From [Zimmermannella] bifida NBRC 103089 (GTDB taxonomy: Bacteria; Actinomycetota; Actinomycetes; Actinomycetales; Microbacteriaceae): a stretch of 64,000 nt of DNA. The notes below the pieces were generated by a model. The model did not search any database, was not told the DNA's origin, and saw only the letters and a program-made list of their open reading frames with translations. Every line of letters starts with the position of its first letter. The stretch's first letter is position 1. Made by a program: the position numbers and the translations under genes. Shown here piece after piece: positions 31,111-39,593 of this stretch. The stretch spans positions 186,001 through 250,000 of the forward strand of contig NZ_BCSP01000003.1 of assembly GCF_001570925.1 (NCBI RefSeq), written 5' to 3'.

Positions 31111-31635
31111 CTACGCCCGGCCCCGCACGACATCACGATGACGTGCATCTGGCGCGAGCTCGCCGGTAGCAAGCCGCTGCATGAGCCCAACGTCGCGGGA
31201 CGCGGCCTTGAAATCGGCCATGCGCACATCGAGTTCGCGCTTGAGTGCCTCGACCACGCCGCGTTCGAGCTGCGGTGCAAAGACCGGTGCCTTGTGCGCA
31301 AACGTGATCTTCCACGTGACGCGGGTTTCGTCGCCTACGGGCGAAAAATGCCAGCCTTCACCGTACGCATCAAGCCACCACGGCCCCTTGACCATCGATG
31401 CGCTCGAGAGCTGGCCGGGAAGCCAGATGTCCTGACGCAGAATCAAGCGCCGGCCGTTGCGCACCCGCTCAAACACGTGGGCGCCCTCACCGAGCGCGGT
31501 CGCCTCGCGAAGCAGCATCCGCTTAACCACCTGCGTATCCCAAGTGGTGCGGTCGCTGCCGAGCGAATGGGCCAGTACAAACGCTTGCTGCGGGGAAAGC
31601 GCTACGAGCGCCGAAACTTCATACGACTGAGACAT
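31111..31635 (-). CDS. SRPBCC/START-like (DUF2505-type) protein
   Basis: A 174-residue protein with the beta-alpha-beta pattern of SRPBCC ligand-binding folds: a first strand SYEVSALVALSPQQAF, a central GWHFSPVGDETRVTWKITF and a long C-terminal helix (VVEALKRELDVRMADFKAAS). Such proteins bind hydrophobic ligands or act as lipid carriers; no catalytic residues can be assigned. The ATG lies 6 nt after a TACACT box, so the mRNA may be leaderless. The gene is convergent with the HNH gene and stands alone. Confidence 0.8.
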   Translation of the reverse strand: MSQSYEVSALVALSPQQAFVLAHSLGSDRTTWDTQVVKRMLLREATALGEGAHVFERVRNGRRLILRQDIWLPGQLSSASMVKGPWWLDAYGEGWHFSPVGDETRVTWKITFAHKAPVFAPQLERGVVEALKRELDVRMADFKAASRDVGLMQRLATGELAPDARHRDVVRGRA

Positions 31636-31641
31636 AGCTTC

Positions 31642-31647
31642 AGTGTA
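31642..31647 (-). promoter_or_regulatory. -10 box of the SRPBCC gene
   Basis: TACACT on the minus strand, 6 nt before the ATG at 31635. Confidence 0.4.
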
Positions 31648-31707
31648 GGAAGTCGGCGCTCGCAGTGTGTGGGGGAGCTGTGTGAACAGACTCGAGTGGG
31701 GCGAAAC

Positions 31708-32379
31708 CTAGCTGGCAGCCGAGAGGACCGGCAAGCCTTCGGACGGCTGGATGATGACGAAGCCGGGGCCGTGGAAAGCGAGCTGGAATGACTCGCCCGA
31801 GCCGCGACCGATGAGCGAGCCCATCTTGAAATCATTCTTGATGGTCGGGGTGAGGTTTGCTGACCAGCACACCGTTGCCTGCGGGTCGGTGTAAATCGGG
31901 CCCTGTGAGGCATCGAGGATGAGCGGGGTACCGTCGCTGACGACCGCGAGCATGCCCGAGCCGCCAACTTCAAGGTTGAACAGGCCACCGGCCATCAGAC
32001 CGGCGTTGCCGAGCATCTTAGGCTCGTAGTGCAGGGTGGCGTCGAACGCGAGCACGTGCTCGGTGTTCAGCGTGAGGCCCTCGTTCTCGAGCTCCATGAG
32101 GAAGATCTCCTGGGCACGAATCGCGAGCCACGTTTCACCCTGGCCCGAGACCTTCATCAGGTTTTTGCCCTCACCGGTGAGCTGCTTCTTGAGGAACTGG
32201 CCCATGCCCTTCGAACCCTGGTGAGCAAAATCGAGGTTGCCACGGTAGGCGACCATTGCCCCCTTCTGTGACACGATGTCTGGGCCGAGTCCGACGCGCA
32301 GCAACTTGCTGGACTCGAGAACATAGCGATCGGTGGATGGGTCGCGGTGGTTGGCCTGGTCGAAAATTGGACTGCGCAC
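31708..32379 (-). CDS. AIM24 family protein
   Basis: The GTG at 32379 is chosen because GAGG lies 6 nt upstream; the open frame extends to 32544 but with no ribosome site. The 223-residue product is beta-rich with repeated Gly turns (VSQKGAMVAYRGNLDF, LMKVSGQGETWLA, and IGRGSGESFQLAFHGPGFVI), which is the AIM24/TIGR00266 pattern. The fold is a trimeric beta-prism related to tryptophan RNA-binding attenuation-like proteins. The function in bacteria is unknown. The gene stands alone beside tRNA-Arg. Confidence 0.87.
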   Translation of the reverse strand: MRSPIFDQANHRDPSTDRYVLESSKLLRVGLGPDIVSQKGAMVAYRGNLDFAHQGSKGMGQFLKKQLTGEGKNLMKVSGQGETWLAIRAQEIFLMELENEGLTLNTEHVLAFDATLHYEPKMLGNAGLMAGGLFNLEVGGSGMLAVVSDGTPLILDASQGPIYTDPQATVCWSANLTPTIKNDFKMGSLIGRGSGESFQLAFHGPGFVIIQPSEGLPVLSAAS

Positions 32380-32620: not shown

Positions 32621-32695
32621 GCCCCCGTAGCTCAGTGGATAGAGCATCCCTCTCCTAAAGGGTGTGCGCAAGTTCGATTCTTGTCGGGGGCACCA
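32621..32695 (+). tRNA. tRNA-Arg(CCT)
   Basis: Cloverleaf with 7-bp acceptor stem (GCCCCCG/CGGGGGC), D-arm GCTCAGTGGATAGAGC, anticodon loop CTCCTAA (anticodon CCT), T-arm with TTCGATT, and an encoded CCA at 32693-32695. A TACGAT -10 box is at 32605-32610. Confidence 0.95.
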
Positions 32696-32835: not shown

Positions 32836-35800
32836 GTGTGGGGCATTTTCCGTAAGCGAGACAACGACCGTGCCGACGGTGCGCATACGCGTAACGTCCC
32901 CGAGTCGAGCGCAAATGAGACCGAACCGATCCTCGACCGCGAGAACACGCTCGAAGAAGAACGTGACCTCGTTGATGGCGTAGGTAAGGGGGAGCGTCCC
33001 AGCGACTGGATTGACCAGGTTCGCGCCACACGTGCCGGTGCATCCGACACCGCTTTCGCGCCGCCTGCTGACGACGACCGTTCCGAAGCGCCGGAGTCGG
33101 AACCAATCACCGCCTCGGCGAGTGATGCTGCGAGCGCTCAACACGACATCGACCTGTCGGTTGATGACATGGACGACGCCCCGGGTCGTGACAATGCGCA
33201 TGCTGCCGAATCGGCCAACTTGACGGATGCGGGCGACGTGGTCGACGACGCACCATTCGAGCGTCCCGAAACGATTGACGAACGTGTTGCCCACGAGCGC
33301 TGGCGCAACGAGGTCGCCGCGCTCGGTGGGAAATCGCCGCAGCTCTACTTCAGCGGCCGACGTGGCACCTACATCGACCTCAGCACCGCGCATCCATCGG
33401 GCATTGCGCTGCTGCTGGCCCGACGCCCGGTCATGCTTTCGAGCCTGTTGCGTGAGCCCCTCACCTTCCGCAACGCGCTTGACGCTGCCGGCCACATCAC
33501 CCGCCTTGGTGCCGAACTCGAAGCCGCACGTGGCTTGAACACGATTCAGCTGGCTGCTGGTTTCGCCACCTGGACGGGCACCGGTGGTATCGAACGGAAC
33601 GCTCCGATTTTCTTGCGTCAAGCATCGCTGCGTCGACTCGGTCGCGACTACGAGATTCGCCTTCGCGGCAAGCTGCAGCCAAACGTTGCGCTGCTGCGGG
33701 CCATGTACCACGAGGGCGCCACTCTGCGTGCGAGCGAACTCATGCAGCAGGTAGAAGCATCGGATGCGCTGCTGCCAGAAGCCGCATTTGCGTACGTTCG
33801 CGAGGCGGGTCGTGGACTCAGCGGATTCACGGTTGACTCGATCGCGGCGCTTTCGACCTTCGCCGACTTTGCGGACGCGATGTACGACGACCTTGGCACC
33901 CTCGACCAGCCCATTGTTCGCGCGCTGGCCGGAAACGCCGGTGCCCGCGACTTCCTTGGTCGTCCCATCCGTGCGGAGCAGGCCATCGATCCGGATCACC
34001 GCGACCCGTCTTCAGATCGCCTGCTGCTCGATGCCGACACCCAGCAAGAACGCGTTGTTGACGCGATTCTTGGCGGTTCCAACCTGGTTGTGGAAACGCT
34101 GCCGGGAACCGGTGTGACACAGACCGTCGTCAACGCGATCGGCCAATTGCTCGACCGCAACCGGCGCGTGCTGGTCGTAACCCCGCGGACCGCATCCGTG
34201 CGCACTATTCGCGCGCGCCTCAAGCACGTTGGCCTCGAAGGGGTCGCGGTCACCCCACGCACGCTGCGCCGCGACATCATCGCCGGCATCACCCGCAACG
34301 AGCGCGCCGAGCGACCAAACACTGCCGAGCTCGACGACGCACTCGTACGTCTGCGTCGCGTGCTCTCGGACTACCGAGCGGCCCTTGCCACCAAGCACGA
34401 ATCGTTCGGCGTTTCACCGCTCGACGCCCTCGAGGCCCTCAGCCAACTCGAGCTGCTCGAGGTACCGCCTTCGACCACGGCCCGCCTGCGCCGCGACGAG
34501 CTCGACACCTTTGCTGAGGTGACCGCGCGTGCCGAAGCGGGCGAGCAACTGCGCGAACTCGGCGAACTCGGCCAGTTCCGACTCAACGAAGAAGACTCGC
34601 CCTGGTTCGGCGTCGCCTTTGGCAGCACCGACGAAGTCAGCGAGGTCTACGGCACTGCAGTTGAACTCGCCGATGGTCGTGTCACCGAGTTCCTGGATGA
34701 AACGCGCAAGATCGTGCAGCAGACCAATCTGCGCGAACCCGAGACCTTTACCGAGCTCGGCATTTACCTGCGCCTGCTCGCAGATATTCGTGAGACGCTC
34801 GACCGCTTCACCCCAGAGGTCTTTGACGCCGACCTCGCTGAGCTCATTGAAGCTACCGGTGGCCGCCGCGAAGGCAGCGATATGCCGTCGGCTCGTCGCC
34901 GTGAGCTGCGCCAGCTCGCCCGCGAATTCGTACGCCCCGGTGTCACCGTCAATGAGCTTCACGAGTCGCTCAAGTACGTACAGCGTCAGCGCATCCTCTG
35001 GCATCGTTACGTGCAGGACGCCGCTCAGCCGAGCGTGCCGATCGGCATCGACACGGCCCGCGACCACTGGCGTGACCTCTCCGCCAAGATTCAGTTGGTC
35101 GATGGGCCATTCGAAGACGTTGGCCACCAGACCCTCGCGACGACGCCCCTTGACGAGCTCGAATCGCGAATTGCGCGATTGGCAGCAAAGTCTGAGGTGC
35201 TCGATAACGCCGTTGACCGACTCGCACTGAACGAACGGTTGACCGCTCGCGGTCTTGGCGACCTCATCACCGATCTCGCCGAGCGACACATCGAACCTGA
35301 GCATGTCGCCGACGAACTCGAACTCGCCTGGTGGCAGTCGGTGCTCGAAGAACTGCTCGTAAACGACAAAGCGCTCCTCAATGCGAACACGCGCGTGGTG
35401 ACCCGCCTCGAGAGCGACTTCCGCGTCGTCGACGAAGCACACACCGCATCCACCGCCAGCCAAATTGCCTGGCAGCTCGCCGAAGCGTGGAAGGTCGCGC
35501 TCGTTGACGGCGATGACCAGGCCGAAACGTTCCGCCAATTGCTGCGCAGCCCGGGCACGTCATCGCGACAGCTCGTGAACAAGGCACCGTCGATCTCCGA
35601 ACCGCTCACGCAGGTTTGGTTGGCTTCGCCGTACGACGTGCACCGCATCGACGAACGCATCACCTTCGACACAGTGCTGCTCGTTGATGCCGGCGCATTC
35701 ACTACCGCAGAGGCCATCGGCGCCATTCGCCGCGCCAATCAGGTTGTTGCCTTCGGCGACCCGGTCACGCAGTTCCCAACGCCGTTCGAAGTCGCTGTGC

Positions 35801-37068
35801 AGCCGCCAATGGAAGCGCAGCGCGTTGACGCGAAGTTGTCGAAGGAAGACGTTGCGCGGCTCACCGACGACTCGATCTACGCGAGCCTGGCCGAGTTCCT
35901 GCCCGGAATCTCGCTGACGCGTTCCTACCGCGCAGGTGGGGAAGACCTCACCGAACTGGTCAACGAGCGCTTCTACGACGGGCGCTTGGATTCGATGCCG
36001 TGGGCCGGAGCCTTCCTCGGACACTCCTCACTTACCTATTCGTACGTGCCAAACGGCACCGGCATGCCCGACCCCCGCACCGGTGCGGTCGAAGCAACCG
36101 ACGCCGAGGTCACCCGCGTTATCGAACTGGTGCTTGACCACGCCATCCACCGCCCTCGCGAATCACTCATGGTCGTGAGCGCCTCGGCTGCGCACGCACA
36201 GCGCGTCGAGCAGGCCGTGTGGTCGGCAGTTTCGCACCGCGCGGATGTGGCGGAGTTCTTTATGCGACCACGAAACGAACCGTTTGTGGTCACCACGATC
36301 GAAGGCGCTGCGGCCCAATCGCGCGACCGCGTCATCTTCTCGCTCGGCTACGGCGTCACCCCGCACGGGCGCGTGCTGTCGGAATTCGGCGTGCTGGCCG
36401 GACCGCTCGGCACGAAGTCGCTGGCGGTGACCATGTCGCGTGCGCGACGGTCGCTGGTAATCGTGAGCTGCATCCGCCCCGAACAGCTCGATTTGAGCCG
36501 ACTCACCCCGGGCGTGCTGCAATTGTGCGAGATTCTCACCGAGCTTGATGAGCGCGATGCGGATGCGCGTCTCGCGTCGCCTGCGCAGGGCAACGCGTCG
36601 GCGGATGCGGCTGGTGCCGTAGCCACGCGCCAGCGCCGACCGATGCTGGTCGACCTGGGCCGACGACTCGAGAGCTTCGGCATGCGTGTCGAACTCGACT
36701 ACCGTGGCCGCATCCCGCTCGCTGCCTCGTACGGACACCGTGCGATCGTGGTCGATATGGAAGCTGTGGGTCGCGGAGAATCTGACCAGGCGGTCAAGCA
36801 CACGCTGCGTGAGACCCTGCGACTGCGTCCCGAGCTGCTTAAGCGTCTGGGTTGGTACTACCTGCGCGTGCACGCGTTCGAGCTGTTCGCGAACCCCGAG
36901 GCGGTCGCGCAGCGCATTGCCACGGCGCTTGAAGTGCCAATCGGTGATCAGGACGGCGAGACCCTGGCGATTGAAGCGGCGCCAAAGGCGATCGCCGAGC
37001 GCGAGGCGCCCCGCGCAATCGAACCGGGTACTTCGGGCTCGAACCTGTTCGACACCGATTCGGAATAG
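32836..37068 (+). CDS. Very large SF1-helicase-like protein with degenerate ATPase motifs
   Basis: A 1410-residue protein starting at GTG, 7 nt after TAGGTT; the open frame runs back into tRNA-Arg but upstream starts are implausible. Residues ~1-150 are acidic and disordered. From ~400 a DNA2/Upf1-like SF1 core follows, but Walker A reads LPGTGVTQT (Val427 where Lys is needed). The Walker B region reads LLVDAGAF (Asp951-Ala952 in place of Asp-Glu). The motif VI-like SRARRSLVIVS (~1201) is kept. The C-terminal ~150 residues (GWYYLRVHAFELFANPEAVA) resemble the Vsr/DUF559-like nuclease tail of DUF4011/DUF3320 helicases. It is likely a pseudo-ATPase; the role is unknown. Confidence 0.82.
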   Translation: MWGIFRKRDNDRADGAHTRNVPESSANETEPILDRENTLEEERDLVDGVGKGERPSDWIDQVRATRAGASDTAFAPPADDDRSEAPESEPITASASDAASAQHDIDLSVDDMDDAPGRDNAHAAESANLTDAGDVVDDAPFERPETIDERVAHERWRNEVAALGGKSPQLYFSGRRGTYIDLSTAHPSGIALLLARRPVMLSSLLREPLTFRNALDAAGHITRLGAELEAARGLNTIQLAAGFATWTGTGGIERNAPIFLRQASLRRLGRDYEIRLRGKLQPNVALLRAMYHEGATLRASELMQQVEASDALLPEAAFAYVREAGRGLSGFTVDSIAALSTFADFADAMYDDLGTLDQPIVRALAGNAGARDFLGRPIRAEQAIDPDHRDPSSDRLLLDADTQQERVVDAILGGSNLVVETLPGTGVTQTVVNAIGQLLDRNRRVLVVTPRTASVRTIRARLKHVGLEGVAVTPRTLRRDIIAGITRNERAERPNTAELDDALVRLRRVLSDYRAALATKHESFGVSPLDALEALSQLELLEVPPSTTARLRRDELDTFAEVTARAEAGEQLRELGELGQFRLNEEDSPWFGVAFGSTDEVSEVYGTAVELADGRVTEFLDETRKIVQQTNLREPETFTELGIYLRLLADIRETLDRFTPEVFDADLAELIEATGGRREGSDMPSARRRELRQLAREFVRPGVTVNELHESLKYVQRQRILWHRYVQDAAQPSVPIGIDTARDHWRDLSAKIQLVDGPFEDVGHQTLATTPLDELESRIARLAAKSEVLDNAVDRLALNERLTARGLGDLITDLAERHIEPEHVADELELAWWQSVLEELLVNDKALLNANTRVVTRLESDFRVVDEAHTASTASQIAWQLAEAWKVALVDGDDQAETFRQLLRSPGTSSRQLVNKAPSISEPLTQVWLASPYDVHRIDERITFDTVLLVDAGAFTTAEAIGAIRRANQVVAFGDPVTQFPTPFEVAVQPPMEAQRVDAKLSKEDVARLTDDSIYASLAEFLPGISLTRSYRAGGEDLTELVNERFYDGRLDSMPWAGAFLGHSSLTYSYVPNGTGMPDPRTGAVEATDAEVTRVIELVLDHAIHRPRESLMVVSASAAHAQRVEQAVWSAVSHRADVAEFFMRPRNEPFVVTTIEGAAAQSRDRVIFSLGYGVTPHGRVLSEFGVLAGPLGTKSLAVTMSRARRSLVIVSCIRPEQLDLSRLTPGVLQLCEILTELDERDADARLASPAQGNASADAAGAVATRQRRPMLVDLGRRLESFGMRVELDYRGRIPLAASYGHRAIVVDMEAVGRGESDQAVKHTLRETLRLRPELLKRLGWYYLRVHAFELFANPEAVAQRIATALEVPIGDQDGETLAIEAAPKAIAEREAPRAIEPGTSGSNLFDTDSE

Positions 37069-39055: not shown

Positions 39056-39451
39056 TTAGTTCTGTCGCGCAGCGAGCAGGTCGCGGATCTCGGTGAGGAG
39101 ATCGGTTTCGCTGGCGGCTGCCTCTTCTTCCGAAGGCTTGTGGCCGTGCTTGCGAACGTACATCTGCTCCTGCAGCTTGTTCAGTGGCGCGATGATGATG
39201 AAGTACACAACTGCTGCGATGAGCAGGAAGTTGATGACTGCGGCGATAACCATGCCGATGCCGAACTGAATTCCGGCGATGTCAACGACTGCCGATTCGA
39301 TTGCATCGGCCTTGAAGATTGCGGCGATGAGCGGGTTGAAGATGCCGTCGACGATGGCATTAACAATTGCGGTGAATGCGTTGCCAATGATTACTGCGGT
39401 GGCAAGTTCAACGACGTTGCCGCGCATGATGAATTCTTTGAAGCCCTTCAA
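39056..39451 (-). CDS. mscL: Large-conductance mechanosensitive channel MscL
   Basis: A 131-residue channel when started at TTG 39451, giving the standard N-terminus MLKGFKEFIMRGNVVELA; the GGGGGAG site is close upstream. The frame stays open to 39511, which is less likely. The first membrane helix is ATAVIIGNAFTAIVNAIVDG and the second MVIAAVINFLLIAAVVYFII. A cytoplasmic helix (LNKLQEQMYVRKHGHKPSEE) closes the protein. It opens on membrane tension to release solutes after hypo-osmotic shock. It is divergent from, and unrelated in function to, its neighbours. Confidence 0.95.
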   Translation of the reverse strand: MKGFKEFIMRGNVVELATAVIIGNAFTAIVNAIVDGIFNPLIAAIFKADAIESAVVDIAGIQFGIGMVIAAVINFLLIAAVVYFIIIAPLNKLQEQMYVRKHGHKPSEEEAAASETDLLTEIRDLLAARQN

Positions 39452-39593
39452 GGCTCCCCCTTCGTTGTTGCTGTCAAAGCGACTACCGACTTTAGTCGTG
39501 AACGACGGCAAAAGATAGGGATTTCGTTATTTGTTCAGATAATGAATTGTGTGGTGGTCGAATTGGGCAGATGCTACCTAGTAATGGTTGCGT

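Follow-up and report, generated by a model that had tools for sequence, protein, structure and literature searches.

The closest described relatives of the gene considered here, which occupies positions 32836-37068 (+) of a 64,000-nucleotide stretch of [Zimmermannella] bifida NBRC 103089 (contig NZ_BCSP01000003.1; "the window" denotes this whole stretch), are anti-phage proteins of the ProA/Hhe superfamily (DUF4011, superfamily 1 or SF1 helicase, restriction endonuclease or REase), with which its product shares homology and the order of a DUF4011-like region, an SF1 core and an REase domain. ProA (NCBIfam NF058533, 295 bits, E 9.3e-88) and PDC-S37 (PADLOC, 318 bits) are its best profile matches, with homology that extends through helicase core and tail, but the window protein lies far under the curated cut-off (1500, so that it is not scored as a ProA equivalog), has lost the catalytic residues and is nearly universal in its order. 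The Hhe DUF4011 anti-phage protein is a weaker match in the same superfamily (NCBIfam NF042953, 173 bits, E 6.4e-51, cut-off 2000; PADLOC, 128 bits); actinobacterial paralogues of ProA/Hhe type keep GKSQT and DEASQ motifs in 12 of 12 cases. The Upf1-like SF1B helicases (IGHMBP2, Dna2, UPF1, Sen1/Senataxin) have the same core fold (Z about 17-20), whereas the window protein is without the Walker A lysine and the Walker B aspartate and glutamate.

To our knowledge, the known pseudohelicases (RecC, AddB and PriA of Deinococcus radiodurans) have been described singly, and this PriA has no nuclease tail. An inactivated nuclease-like domain of RecC serves as a hoop for single-stranded DNA (PMC1185551), and helicase-like domains of AddB and RecC that are without most or all motifs scan the sequence of single-stranded DNA (PMC4824097). 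The window protein resembles both in having helicase-like domains that have lost most or all motifs, and RecC also in its apparently non-catalytic nuclease-like domain; it differs in that the AddB domain is UvrD-like (PMC4824097) rather than Upf1-like and that RecC and AddB are subunits of a resection complex. The D. radiodurans PriA is likewise a bacterial pseudohelicase of a whole lineage, reported to bind DNA without ATP hydrolysis (PMC4504706), but it is a different helicase with a suggested role in replisome reloading. A comparative study of 2013 gave the MTES_1575 REase domain its name, after a giant protein of Microbacterium testaceum that joins it to an SF-I helicase and to HEPN, transglutaminase and winged helix-turn-helix (wHTH) domains (PMC3710099). 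No description of a degenerate, near-universal DUF4011-SF1-REase family was found in the accessible text of the open-licence literature (e.g. PMC10250203, PMC3710099).

In the family of the window's species and almost the whole of its order, the catalytic residues of this protein have been lost, the gene is retained, its location recurs, and the state of the Walker A lysine has changed on the phylogenetic tree. The reading towards which we lean is that the product is a non-catalytic pseudohelicase-pseudonuclease, largely vertically inherited, that would work like RecC and AddB as a nucleic-acid scaffold or sensor.

Catalytic residues in the window protein and its relatives

The gene, the parts of its product and the motifs discussed below are as follows; dN/dS is the ratio of nonsynonymous to synonymous substitution rates.

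32836-37068, + strand: putative pseudohelicase-pseudonuclease gene, 1410 amino acids, open frame, matches in 149/150 family and 146/149 order genomes
32836-33285, + strand: N-terminal extension, residues 1-150, poorly conserved (48% identity, dN/dS 0.33 against the nearest relative)
33286-34005, + strand: DUF4011-like N-terminal region, residues 151-390 (sub-threshold DUF4011 match, 12.1 bits, E 0.19)
34006-34305, + strand: start of RecA-like domain 1, residues 391-490 (sub-threshold AAA_11 match; predicted Upf1-like fold)
34099-34125, + strand: degenerate Walker A, LPGTGVTQT, residues 422-430, lysine replaced by V427 (codon GTG, 34114-34116)
34306-35610, + strand: helical insert, residues 491-925 (helices in the model; constrained, dN/dS 0.06)
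35611-36555, + strand: remaining helicase core with motifs II-VI, residues 926-1240 (sub-threshold AAA_12 match; model and Protein Data Bank matches)
35665-35694, + strand: degenerate Walker B, FDTVLLVDAG, residues 944-953, canonical Asp replaced by V950 and Glu by D951
35755-35778, + strand: motif III, GDPVTQFP, residues 974-981, Gln replaced by T978
35923-35934, + strand: motif IV, SYRA, residues 1030-1033, Arg1032 kept (Arg in 146/146 family copies)
36313-36336, + strand: motif V, AQSRDRVI, residues 1160-1167, Gly replaced by A1160 and Glu by S1162
36436-36450, + strand: motif VI, SRARR, residues 1201-1205, Arg1202 and Arg1204 kept (Arg in 136/146 and 144/146 family copies)
36619-36951, + strand: C-terminal domain of predicted REase fold (MTES_1575/Vsr-like), residues 1262-1372, catalytic Asp replaced by P1294 and Glu by D1307

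Compared with the nearest relative, the five parts other than the N-terminal extension have 79-89% identity and dN/dS of 0.05-0.11. The P-loop LPGTGVTQT at residues 422-430, with GTG-encoded V427 in the place of the lysine, reads as the initial annotation had it. The same annotation placed the Walker B site, LLVDAGAF, correctly at residues 948-955 but counted only the glutamate as lost; the ungapped alignment with intact relatives (FDxxxxDEAS) puts the canonical Asp at V950 and the Glu at D951, both changed, and the modelled strand 944-949, which stops just before V950, agrees with this alignment. Hence neither the lysine nor the Asp-Glu pair of an enzymatic SF1B (Upf1-like) helicase is present (V427, V950, D951). 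The nuclease-like tail, which had been taken to be well kept, has changed in its catalytic pair, the Asp and Glu of an MTES_1575/Vsr-like REase being replaced by P1294 and D1307 (Pfam 19 bits, cut-off 38.2). True Walker motifs elsewhere were considered and rejected, there being no [AG]xxxxGK[ST] string anywhere in the window protein. Such a string occurs once in 34 of 146 family copies, 33 times at the equivalent of window-protein residue 191 and once (L255) at residue 623. The residue-191 string (e.g. L015, L019, L127) is A-x4-GK[ST], mostly AQFITGKT, and lies in the N-terminal region; it is absent from the window protein.

The comparison covers 271 aligned copies, drawn from 135 of 149 family-draw matches and 118 of 146 order-draw matches (with genomes partly shared) plus others; below, f numbers denote families and L numbers loci, and f1 is the window protein's family (Microbacteriaceae, 146 aligned copies). 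Left unextracted were 14 family-draw matches (G154 and 13 that were split, truncated or weak) and 28 order-draw matches, including all of f54 (E about 1e-24 to 1e-29). L125, from a duplicate genome, is not counted; L029, L030 and L043-L047 repeat loci that had been counted already; and the genes at L041, L167, L313, L324 and L346/L348 are partial, the first four being excluded from trees. A related-locus search contributed seven named loci, two of them aligned; Pseudoclavibacter and Planctomonas, relatives named by it, point to Microbacteriaceae as the family.

The Walker A lysine is present in nine copies, absent from 261 and gapped in one, so V427 is not due to chance or local error. In f1 it is found in 0 of 146 copies, replaced by G (95), A (16), V (12), L (8), Y (6), S (5), I (2), R (1) or T (1); the alignment of orthologues that had been suggested as a check on the initial annotation thus gives no local mutation. 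In f35, of the same class but outside the order, the position is Arg in 10/10 aligned and 5/5 further copies. The lysine-bearing copies belong to f5 (2/2), f17 (6/9) and f42 (1/1), and all nine retain DE in Walker B and the acidic nuclease pair. With nine gapped rows set aside, DE is retained in none of the 253 scored lysine-less rows, but 27 of the 253 have Asp or Glu at the first nuclease site and Asp, Glu or Gln at the second. Since no scored row has the lysine without the nuclease pair, the sequences suggest that the helicase failed before the nuclease; a counter-example is the out-of-class homologue L347, whose nuclease site is changed but which retains GKS and DEAS. An acidic nuclease pair alongside a degenerate helicase is seen in copies of f12 (7/8), f16 (7/8), f6 (6/10) and f7 (4/10); these are possible nuclease-only intermediates.

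Predicted fold, selective constraint and distribution

Pfam gives only sub-threshold matches to the window protein (AAA_11, MTES_1575, AAA_12, DUF4011 and others); its intact orthologue L097 is above the cut-offs for DUF4011, AAA_11/AAA_12 and MTES_1575, and DUF4011 is also above the cut-off in L087 and just below it in L028. An AlphaFold2 (AF2) model of residues 172-1371 built from 53 sequences (predicted local distance difference test, pLDDT, 91.2; predicted template modelling score, pTM, 0.81) is of high confidence from residue 172 onward and predicts the tandem RecA core of an Upf1-like SF1B helicase. Its best matches in the Protein Data Bank (PDB) are IGHMBP2 (Z 20.5 over 488 residues, 4.5 Å) and Dna2 (Z 19.3), then Sen1/Senataxin and UPF1; a PDB search by sequence reached E 0.37 at best (NAM7). 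The guess of a DNA2 or DUF4011 family affiliation was apt, the predicted fold being Upf1/Dna2-like and the sequence DUF4011-ProA/Hhe-like. Modelled alone, the C-terminal domain (115 residues, pLDDT 80.5) shows a resemblance to nuclease folds, namely 3hrl (Z 8.8), Hjc (Z 8.5) and Vsr (Z 7.1); Foldseek with this REase domain returned nothing at E <= 0.001 (best E 0.064).

As had been supposed from its length, the gene is under selection, which is purifying: dN/dS in 13 pairs by the method of Nei and Gojobori (NG86) is 0.039-0.285, the ratios being rough for the four pairs with dS >1. The two pairs of intact copies, at 0.261 and 0.285, are at the upper end of the range, so the degenerate copies are no less constrained. 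The most constrained stretch of the window protein is residues 391-1240 (dN/dS 0.05-0.06). In f1, the entropy of G424, G426, Q429 and N433 falls in the 0-3rd percentile and that of the lysine position in the 63rd, and the P-loop glycines, Q429/T430 and the motif IV and VI arginines are strongly conserved. The near-invariant residues Y513, D951 (Asp in 145/146 copies), S1030 and G1035 of f1 differ from those that are invariant in intact copies; a family with near-invariant residues of its own is not in simple decay. The proposal of a dedicated pseudo-ATPase is supported, at the level of sequence, by the absence of the lysine from 146/146 family copies, by purifying selection and by the lack of an alternative P-loop.

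Matches to the protein were found in 40/40 genomes of the relatives search, the window's own included, in 149/150 family genomes (137/137 of high quality) and in 146/149 order genomes (141/143 of high quality), where some weak matches may be paralogues. Small genomes of 0.93 Mb (G233), 0.8 Mb (G394) and 1.1-1.5 Mb have copies, with motifs degenerate there too. Such near-universal retention, small genomes included, makes it probable that the protein has an important job without enzyme activity. Outside the order the distribution is patchy: 58/197 class genomes have a match at E <= 0.001, a count that takes in paralogues and members of the order, and 11/119 genomes at E <= 1e-20 in a phylum-level search. 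A member of the mscL sequence cluster is present in 25/35 loci of up to 20 kb (one member was checked with Pfam), and an mscL match in 142/229 mostly narrower loci. The intact copies of f5 and f17 have mscL nearby in 8/8 cases; the intact f42 copy has none within 20 kb. In f35, mscL is found in 5/10 narrow loci, 2/5 further loci and 2/2 20-kb loci (2-5 kb away). Other recurring neighbours encode an FmdB-like zinc ribbon protein, SAF, 5-formyltetrahydrofolate (5-FTHF) cyclo-ligase, GalU and GNAT.

Matches in 334 plasmid records are partial and of low identity, none covering 80% of the protein, and the single matching phage record is likewise partial and contains no relative covering 80%. A mobile defence island was considered as the setting of the gene and is disfavoured by these matches. 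The 415-kb record NZ_CP116225.1 of Actinomyces oris, listed as a plasmid, encodes a protein annotated as DNA helicase with 27% identity over 70% of the window protein.

Lysine history and competing explanations

Under the reading that we favour, the ancestor would have been an active helicase of DUF4011-SF1 (Upf1-like) type whose tail was a Vsr/REase-like nuclease; an active ancestor is indicated by the GKSQT and DEASQ motifs of all twelve paralogues and by the out-of-class homologues L342, L344 and L345 in the tree, which retain helicase and nuclease motifs (in L346/L348, from one genome, the Walker A part is missing from the frame taken). Both catalytic centres would then have been abandoned and the whole fold retained under purifying selection. 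Like RecC or AddB, the protein may act as a scaffold or sensor whose SF1 groove and domain of nuclease fold grip or recognise nucleic acid, or a partner attached to it, with neither ATP-driven movement nor cutting. We infer the absence of ATPase and nuclease activity from residue loss; analogy with RecC, AddB and PriA suggests that the protein would bind nucleic acid and act as scaffold or sensor.

Catalysis was probably lost repeatedly, inasmuch as a tree of 41 sampled rows (1093 columns, mixture model, catalytic motifs removed) requires at least three changes of lysine state. A bolder version of the favoured reading, which is advanced tentatively, is that an ancient actinobacterial helicase-nuclease of defence type, once domesticated at the mscL locus, lost both activities at least three times in parallel. 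It would now be one of the core proteins of the order, nearly universal and perhaps essential, and would bind nucleic acid without catalysis. The interest of the case is that both catalytic centres of a core of about 1200 residues have changed across almost the whole order, seemingly on more than one occasion, and that active sister copies occupying the same site in the genome offer a ready comparison: a natural experiment on why evolution drops motor and cutter but keeps the frame, with a bearing on how an immune-type enzyme may turn to housekeeping. Retention in genomes of 0.8-0.93 Mb suggests an unrecognised core function.

Several observations weigh against a non-catalytic protein that lost its activities repeatedly. 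The conservation of P-loop and arginines in f1 means that nucleotide binding may persist, and the acidic pair kept in most copies of f12, f16 and f6 means that the nuclease may be alive in those families; 111/146 f1 copies still have the Glu of the nuclease site, and the nuclease pattern is found in only 5/12 of the ProA/Hhe-type paralogues, one of them probably spurious. No operon partner was found among the recurring neighbours, which are housekeeping genes that give no functional clue. An earlier tree of 67 sampled rows, with open forks, needed only two changes of lysine state; both trees are quick, some of their branches are long, and the degenerate group tested on the 41-row tree was named after the earlier tree had been seen.

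Alternatively, the protein might have passed from defence to regulation or sensing, as the descendant of a ProA/Hhe/PDC-S37-like anti-phage enzyme that still detects invader nucleic acid and signals through a partner without cutting. Its closest profiles are indeed anti-phage, but its NCBIfam scores are far under both curated cut-offs, and a near-universal gene in a housekeeping locus, kept in sub-megabase genomes and with no relative covering 80% in the matching plasmid and phage records, is not the patchy and mobile gene that is expected in defence; we consider this origin of the present function rather unlikely. A single ancestral loss, with active copies later brought back into f5 and f17 through replacement of the gene in situ, is somewhat less credible still: the intact copies there are few (eight) and the two changes on the first tree would accommodate it, but these copies fall in family-consistent clades, each has mscL nearby, and holding the 24 degenerate rows of the 41-row tree as one clade costs 52 log units and is rejected by the approximately unbiased (AU) test (p-AU 0.0176, from a quick tree). 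It is doubtful that the protein is still an ATPase or helicase by way of substitute residues, with the retained P-loop, the arginines and D951 as metal ligand; the conservation of these residues and of Q429 in f1 speaks for it, but the lysine position is variable where its neighbours hardly vary, and the motif IV Arg is also absent from f3, f4, f9, f10, f14 and f55 (0/49 copies). A decaying pseudogene or assembly error would account for the loss of catalytic residues but, like a local mutation, is ruled out for practical purposes by long open frames (neither frameshifts nor relaxed dN/dS being seen in the extracted copies), dN/dS of 0.04-0.29, near-universal retention and the family-wide loss of the lysine.

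Immediate surroundings of the gene

Two features of the window near the putative pseudohelicase gene bear on its start and its location.

32621-32695, + strand: tRNA-Arg (CCT), just upstream of the gene
39059-39511, - strand: mscL, the recurring neighbour of the gene (Pfam MscL, E 1.8e-32)

A frame check in the window found the open reading frame (ORF) 32836-37068 (+) uninterrupted through 1410 codons plus stop. The longest mechanical ORF would start at 32662, within the tRNA-Arg gene, so the GTG start at 32836 is plausible, and the extent of the 1410-residue gene given by the initial annotation is upheld. The window's own genome has a second weak helicase match (G000:C5:129395-129748, L337) to residues 362-472, which belongs to a different protein. 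Another ORF of the window, 31138-31791, overlaps the tRNA-Ser(CGA) gene at 31234-31326, has no Pfam or NCBIfam match and is probably not a gene.

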